From assembly GCA_013298865.1 (NCBI GenBank), contig JAAFJL010000003.1, positions 1-64,000 of the forward strand: 64,000 nt of DNA. The letters run 5' to 3'. Below, one piece after another: positions 47,164 to 49,410 of the stretch. This DNA comes from Cytophagales bacterium. Lineage in GTDB: Bacteria > Bacteroidota > Bacteroidia > Cytophagales > Spirosomataceae. A model generated the notes under the pieces. That model saw only the letters and a program-made list of their open reading frames with translations. It did no database searches and had not been told where the DNA came from. How positions within the stretch are numbered: position 1 is the stretch's first letter; each line of letters begins with the position of its first letter. The position numbers were made by a program, and so were the translations under genes.

Positions 47164-47195
47164 ATTCATTCATTCATTCATTCATTCATTCATTC
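47164..47195. repeat. (ATTC)8 tetranucleotide tract
   Basis: Eight perfect ATTC units lie between the HAD gene start and the fusion gene stop. A tract like this is prone to slippage. Being outside coding sequence it would change only the spacing to the HAD promoter. Confidence 0.9.
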
Positions 47196-47220: not shown

Positions 47221-49257
47221 CTACTTCATAATATTTCTCTTGTTCAGTGCTTCTTGATATATGGCGGCGTTTTTCAAGTGGTCTGAATAAGTAACAGCAA
47301 AATTATGATAGCCCGAAAAATCCTCTTTCGCACAGAAATACATAAACTCATGTTTTTCGTAGTTCAAGACTGCATCAATTGAAGTCAAATCTGGCAAATT
47401 GATAGGTCCAGGCGGCAAACCGACAACCTTATAAGTATTGTATGGCGAATCAATTTGCAACAAAGCCTTTGTCACTCTTTTTATCGTAAAATCCTGATGG
47501 GCAAAAATCACCGTTGGGTCTGCACCTAAAGGCATAGCATCACGGAGGCGGTTCATATACACACCTGCAACCCGTGGTTTTTCATCAGCTTTTTTTGTTT
47601 CTCCTTCCACAATTGAAGCCATAATTTGAGCTTTGATTGGGTCAAGTCCTATTTCTTGTGCTTTCTTTTTACGCTCGTCTGTCCAGAAACGTTCGTATTC
47701 AGATTTCATTCTGTCTAACACTTTTTCTGGCTTAGAATTCCAATACATTTCATACGTATTGGGTAGAAACATACACATGAAAGTTTCTTTCGTGAAACCG
47801 TATTTCTGAGCAATCACCTCAGAATCAAGTAGTTCTTGAAATCTTGTTGAGTCGAAAGTGAATTTATTGCCAATTTTATGCACCAAATCTTTTTTGAGAC
47901 GAACGTTATTGAAAGTCAATTTTACAGCATCTTGGTCGCCACTTCTGAGTTTTTTGATGAGTTCATAATTCCCCATCTTAGCCGTTATTTTATACCGACC
48001 AGGTTTTACGGCTTCTTTATATTTCAAGAATTTCGCCAAGAACTTAAACGAAAGTTCGTCTTCTACTATTTTGTTGGTACTTAAAGAATCCCAAACGGTC
48101 TCAAAATTTGCTCCTTCTGGAATAAGTAGATAGAAACTTTTTTCTTTATCAACTTTGAAATTTGGCGTTTTGGCAACTTGCCAGATATAATAAGAAAACA
48201 TTGCTGCAAAAAAAGACACAGCCAAAATCAAATAACGAACTAATTTATTTTTAACCATTTTTATTGGAGTTTTATGAGGGAATTCACGTTCGGGGTCTCC
48301 AGGAATTAAAACCGATTGTCCTTCTATGGCAGGGGCAGCCCTGAAACGGTTTATCCACTTGTCCATATCTTGCTTAAAATCATCAGCAGGACGGAAGCCA
48401 TCAATACGCATTGCACCCAAAAAATGCCCCGTTCCTTTACCTACTTGTTCTCCAGCAGCCATAAATCCTGCGGTGGCAAAAGGAGGAACCCAAGGTCCAA
48501 AGTTTGCCCCAGACAACACGCCAGACAAAATATCAACAATAGCTCCCATGCCATAACCTTTGTGCGAACCATGTTCACGGTCGCCACCAACGGGCAATAA
48601 TGCCCCTCCGTTTTTCACGGCATTGGCATCATCAGTTGGGTTTCCGTCTTTGTCTTGTACCCAACCCAAAGGAGCAGGCGAACCTTTTCTTTGTAAAATT
48701 TCCATTTTGCCATAAGCCACCGCCGTAGTGGCAAAATCTGCAACAAAGGGTGGATTTTCCTTCGCAGGAATCGCTAATGCAATGGGGTTAGTACCCAATA
48801 ATTTTTCTTTTGAAAACGTAGGTGTTACCAATGGAGCGGCGTTGGTCATTGCCCAACCAATCATATCATTTTCCAGAGCCATCATAGCATGAAAACCAGC
48901 AATGCCAAAATGGTTTGAATTTTGCACTGAAATCCAACCAGAGCCTACTGCATTGGCTTTTTGCATGGCAATTTGCATAGCTTTTGGTGCAACTACTAAT
49001 CCCAAACCTTTATCGCCATCAACCACGGCAGTCGAGGGGCTTTCATGAATAATTTTAATTTCAGGTTTTGGATTCAATCTTCCATTATCGTAAAGTCGTA
49101 CATAACCCACCAAACGAGCGATTCCATGAGAATCGACACCCCGTAAATCAGCAGAAATCAAGACTGACGATGCCAACTGAGCGTCATCGTCTGGGCAACC
49201 AATTGAAAGAAAAACTTGTTTAATAAATGCTTGGAGATATTGGTAATCGTAGGTCAT
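47221..49257 (-). CDS. Ldh2-family dehydrogenase fused to MltG endolytic transglycosylase
   Basis: This 678-residue reading frame joins two unrelated enzymes. Residues 1-325 are a malate/L-lactate dehydrogenase (Ldh2/YlbC family): DLRGVDSHGIARLVGYV with catalytic His44, QNSNHFGIAGFHA with His116, and the late GDREHGSHKGYGMGAIVDILSG. It breaks off at LIPGDPERE, lacking the last 25-30 residues of the family. Residues 334-678 are a full-length MltG (345 residues), beginning with its own Met334 (ATG at 48258), a membrane helix, and ASIVEGETKKADEKPRVAGVYMNRL with catalytic Glu551 (E218 in MltG numbering). MltG cuts nascent glycan strands at the inner membrane. Topology works: dehydrogenase in the cytoplasm, MltG outside. 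Internal start at 48258 may also make free MltG. Confidence 0.88.
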   Translation of the reverse strand: MTYDYQYLQAFIKQVFLSIGCPDDDAQLASSVLISADLRGVDSHGIARLVGYVRLYDNGRLNPKPEIKIIHESPSTAVVDGDKGLGLVVAPKAMQIAMQKANAVGSGWISVQNSNHFGIAGFHAMMALENDMIGWAMTNAAPLVTPTFSKEKLLGTNPIALAIPAKENPPFVADFATTAVAYGKMEILQRKGSPAPLGWVQDKDGNPTDDANAVKNGGALLPVGGDREHGSHKGYGMGAIVDILSGVLSGANFGPWVPPFATAGFMAAGEQVGKGTGHFLGAMRIDGFRPADDFKQDMDKWINRFRAAPAIEGQSVLIPGDPEREFPHKTPIKMVKNKLVRYLILAVSFFAAMFSYYIWQVAKTPNFKVDKEKSFYLLIPEGANFETVWDSLSTNKIVEDELSFKFLAKFLKYKEAVKPGRYKITAKMGNYELIKKLRSGDQDAVKLTFNNVRLKKDLVHKIGNKFTFDSTRFQELLDSEVIAQKYGFTKETFMCMFLPNTYEMYWNSKPEKVLDRMKSEYERFWTDERKKKAQEIGLDPIKAQIMASIVEGETKKADEKPRVAGVYMNRLRDAMPLGADPTVIFAHQDFTIKRVTKALLQIDSPYNTYKVVGLPPGPINLPDLTSIDAVLNYEKHEFMYFCAKEDFSGYHNFAVTYSDHLKNAAIYQEALNKRNIMK

Positions 49258-49410
49258 TTAACAATTTGAAAGTTTACATTTTCTAAAAAAATAATAGTGC
49301 AAATATACAAAATCATCATCGGATAGAGTTTATTTGTGTATATTACATTTGTATTAATAACCAACCATAAAAAATATATTTTTAGCTAACTAATTGTTAT
49401 TCAGTGTGAT

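Follow-up and report, generated by a model that had tools for sequence, protein, structure and literature searches.

The two enzymes represented in the protein described here are each known from solved structures. In AllD, a member of the Ldh_2 / L-sulfolactate dehydrogenase-like family (PF02615; PDB 1v9n, 2x06, 3i0p and, for AllD, 4fju), Domain I is assembled from both the N- and the C-terminal regions of the chain, with a four-helix bundle of a1, a2, a3 and a10 that is sealed by helix a9 and strands b1/b13; residues of this domain help surround the cofactor, and roles have been described for the active-site residues S43, H44, R48, Y52 and H116 (PMC3527362). The second is the endolytic transglycosylase MltG, or YceG (PF02618, TIGR00247; PDB 2r1f, 4iiw). 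Some MltG proteins carry a cytoplasmic N-terminal extension before the membrane segment, among them that of Enterococcus faecalis, in which the extension is reported to be disordered and to be phosphorylated at a site that influences resistance (PMC12369325).

The window analysed here (64,000 nucleotides of contig JAAFJL010000003.1 from a Spirosomataceae genome, GCA_013298865.1) contains a single open frame that joins these two enzymes (Table 1). An earlier note, made from the sequence alone, had described it as a dehydrogenase without its C-terminal end running in frame into a complete MltG with its own Met334, and the uninterrupted frame and the matches to both family profiles bear this out. 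As in other Ldh_2 proteins, the catalytic positions are the same, the profile match is strong and the fold is that of the family in a model of a sister protein, but the last ~32 residues are gone, replaced by the junction and a membrane protein. As in other MltG proteins, the domain is complete, with a membrane segment and the IVEGET motif, but it is preceded in frame by 333 residues made up of another enzyme and the junction. A predicted cytoplasmic addition ahead of the membrane segment is also found in MltG of E. faecalis and others, but there it is reported to be a disordered phosphorylated segment (PMC12369325) and here it is an enzyme. The residues across the join read PGDPERE-FPHKTPIK-M334VKNK, and the whole genome has one copy each of ldh2 and mltG. 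Between mltG and a gene for a HAD-type phosphatase, ATTC is repeated eight times in tandem (47164-47195).

Table 1. Features of the fused ldh2-mltG locus, in window coordinates.
Feature	Position	Strand	Basis
Fused frame of 678 aa, truncated Ldh_2 followed by MltG	47221..49257	(-)	Reading frame (678 codons without a stop, ATG 49257 to stop 47221) and Pfam
Ldh_2-type NAD(P)-dependent dehydrogenase, residues 1-325, without the last ~32 of relatives	48283..49257	(-)	PF02615; alignment with 18 relatives
Junction, residues 326-333 (FPHKTPIK), kept mltG leader, in frame	48259..48282	(-)	mltG leaders of relatives; start-signal score
Complete MltG (endolytic transglycosylase) from its native Met334, with a single membrane segment at the N terminus (near 340-361)	47221..48258	(-)	PF02618, TIGR00247; hydropathy
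TATATTTG, putative Bacteroidota-type -7 promoter box	49300..49307	(-)	Consensus match only

The dehydrogenase half matches Pfam Ldh_2 over residues 4-325 (profile positions 2-312 of 333, E 4e-116, 388 bits against a cut-off of 38.8), and S43, H44, R48, Y52 and H116 (AllD numbering) all fall in invariant columns of the alignment with 18 relatives; catalytic residues are thus present here as well as in the MltG half, as had been claimed. What the half does not have is a complete Domain I with its C-terminal helix, as both the sequence (ending at ~325 of 357) and the profile match stop short. The earlier estimate of a 25-30 residue loss was therefore right about the truncation and slightly low about its size, which is ~32 when the sister Ldh2 of 357 aa is compared with the last shared residue near 325. 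In a structural model of that sister protein, the corresponding tail is a helix (321-333), a strand and a second helix (339-351) with block-mean pLDDT of 86-96, and the model aligns end to end, to its last residues, with solved family members. By this comparison, Domain I of the fusion is predicted to stop within a9 and to have neither b13 nor a10, and a hydrophobic membrane helix follows the Ldh2 part and junction in place of the lost tail. Because Domain I has lost its last helix, the truncated half is probably unstable or inactive, and its dehydrogenase activity is doubtful. The predicted structure of the fusion itself is a weak hint of low confidence (mean pLDDT 54, with the MltG half modelled from one sequence).

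Decay of the Ldh2 half was looked for and not seen: only two conservative changes (L223V and L237M) were seen at 116 near-invariant columns, and the terminal branch is of ordinary length (0.103, against 0.099 and 0.120 in sister genera). Such an undecayed sequence fits equally well with a recent event and with a half that may still be working.

The MltG half is complete. Pfam YceG matches residues 379-664 (profile 3-273 of 275, E 5e-81, 272.6 bits against a cut-off of 32.4), TIGR00247 scores 174.7 bits against a cut-off of 103.4, the catalytic glutamate motif IVEGET at 549-554 aligns with 2r1f and 4iiw, and a hydropathy peak at 340-361 marks the N-terminal membrane segment. In alignments, Met334 coincides with the first residue of MltG where relatives encode it separately, in agreement with the suggestion that the joining segment is mltG leader sequence translated in frame. 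Scored with a start-site profile trained on 320 genes of the same genome, whose starts were picked by the model itself, the 20 bases 5' of Met334 reach 5.4 bits, which is the 81st percentile of the 320 inferred starts and the 99.8th of 1627 internal ATGs; none of the other internal ATGs up to residue 353 scores near it, and the start signal of Met1 lies at the 15th percentile of starts. The strength of the signal before Met334 suggests that the mltG leader was spared, and that MltG can start internally, as the earlier note had allowed, is on this score very probable; MltG alone is probably still made from Met334. Upstream, the sole TAnnTTTG on the minus strand between 48200 and 49500 is TATATTTG, which we take to be a -7 box of the Bacteroidota-type promoter class, ~45-50 bases before Met1; the same scan found no promoter-like -7 box inside ldh2. 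With one such box before Met1 and none within ldh2, both parts are probably carried on one transcript.

Comparison with relatives shows how the two genes are otherwise arranged. In a first sample of 38 other genomes, ldh2 and mltG adjoin on one strand in several Spirosomataceae genera and lie apart in others. Adjacent separate pairs occur in Pseudarcicella hirudinis, a Pseudarcicella MAG, Aquirufa, Dyadobacter and others (same-strand neighbours at L003, L044, L040, L047, L008, L013 and others). Each junction read in these relatives has a full Ldh2 tail (~32 residues after PGDPER) and at least one in-frame stop, with spacers that measure between one base, in Aquirufa, and ~150 bases. Arcicella has the pair either widely separated or interrupted by a small frame: in Arcicella aurantiaca an apparent DNA cytosine methyltransferase, judged by eye, follows ldh2 (L035:5098-6063) and mltG lies ~18 kb away on the other strand, while in Arcicella rosea the intervening frame encodes 82 aa and is antitoxin-like by eye (L039:5174-5422). 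A match over residues 1-678 was found only in this genome among the 196 with matches of 200 family genomes searched, that is, in one of 196 rather than in the more than one lineage of a conserved Ldh2-MltG fusion. Independent fusions elsewhere were also considered, and genomes with an open frame above 700 were inspected by hand; every junction read contained one or more in-frame stops. No Ldh2-MltG fusion appeared among the best matches of a literature search.

Here 24 bases separate residue 325 from the mltG start, compared with 112 in the Pseudarcicella MAG, 160 in a further relative (G001) and 249 in P. hirudinis, which implies that ~90-225 bp of ldh2 tail and spacer are missing, a size estimated from the spacing in relatives rather than from an ancestral sequence of the locus. 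The single frame, the missing Ldh2 tail, the separate neighbours in relatives and the lack of a comparable fusion in 196 genomes together argue for a deletion that joined neighbouring genes, as the earlier note had supposed. We favour, with a probability of about 0.72, a recent deletion in one lineage, tolerated as mltG keeps its own start – a one-off accident that implies no new function. A deletion of this size would have taken out the last part of ldh2 together with the stop codon and most of the spacer, leaving the ldh2 frame to run on into the leader of the adjacent mltG; as far as seen, the event is private to this lineage. One mRNA would then be made from the ldh2 promoter, and MltG would be translated mainly from the preserved Met334 start and keep its cell-wall function; some full-length fusion may also be made, in which the first 333 residues would stay cytoplasmic and the dehydrogenase part, with its Domain I short of the last helix, would probably be unstable or inactive. 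An in-frame join is expected by chance in about one third of such deletions and does not by itself point to selection, and the undecayed Ldh2 half fits a recent event. The absence of a second lineage, the damaged fold and the preserved internal start make a recent tolerated accident the best reading.

The most serious alternative, although an unlikely one, is that tail, stop and spacer are all present in the true genome and that ~100-200 bp dropped out of the contig through an assembly artefact or a mixture of strains. The assembly is a draft of 302 contigs, 94% complete, the genus is represented by one genome in our comparison, and the fusion is absent from all relatives. Against this, the window starts at the end of contig C223, which shares its first 125 bases exactly with the end of contig C173. 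Exact end overlaps of this kind are a trace left by short-read de Bruijn assemblers, and in such an assembly the words spanning the junction must occur in the reads. Neither the window nor 400 kb of other contigs contains an N run; this and the end overlap indicate that the junction probably rests on reads. In addition, the domains of 20 neighbouring proteins are not visibly broken where a family was found, and the join lies at the preserved mltG leader. We therefore consider an assembly deletion less likely than a real one, carried either by the strain or by part of the population.

A real deletion may also have been a neutral accident after which the shortened Ldh2 half still folds and works, both functions surviving. 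The kept catalytic residues and undecayed sequence would agree with this, but the lost region forms part of the fold of those solved relatives that were aligned, and all relatives read have it; we regard such survival as highly improbable. Least credible is a selected bifunctional protein, that is, an active dehydrogenase anchored in the membrane beside the cell-wall elongation machinery and serving MltG as a metabolic tether or sensor: its intact active site, undecayed sequence, possible topology and the cytoplasmic N-terminal segments of some MltG (e.g. the phosphorylated site in E. faecalis; PMC12369325) stand against its occurrence in one genome only, the missing end of a9, b13 and a10, the preserved internal start and, as a weak point given the one-sequence MltG half, a lower model confidence in the N-terminal part of Domain I (63 over the first ten residues of the fusion model against 95 in the sister). 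The earlier proposal of a working dehydrogenase held at the elongation site by the fusion is not supported, as the lost tail is structural in the fold, no relative shares the fusion and the frame had a one-in-three chance; a still-folded cytoplasmic dehydrogenase covalently tied to MltG, linking a metabolic signal to glycan-strand cleavage, is just as remote a prospect.

The fused frame is a sound observation, though one of low biological interest. It serves as a warning that domain architecture from one draft genome should not count as a functional link, and the adjacency of ldh2 and mltG across several genera of one family offers a modest lead on gene context. If real, the locus is a clear case of a deletion that fuses neighbours while the downstream gene survives on a preserved start site.
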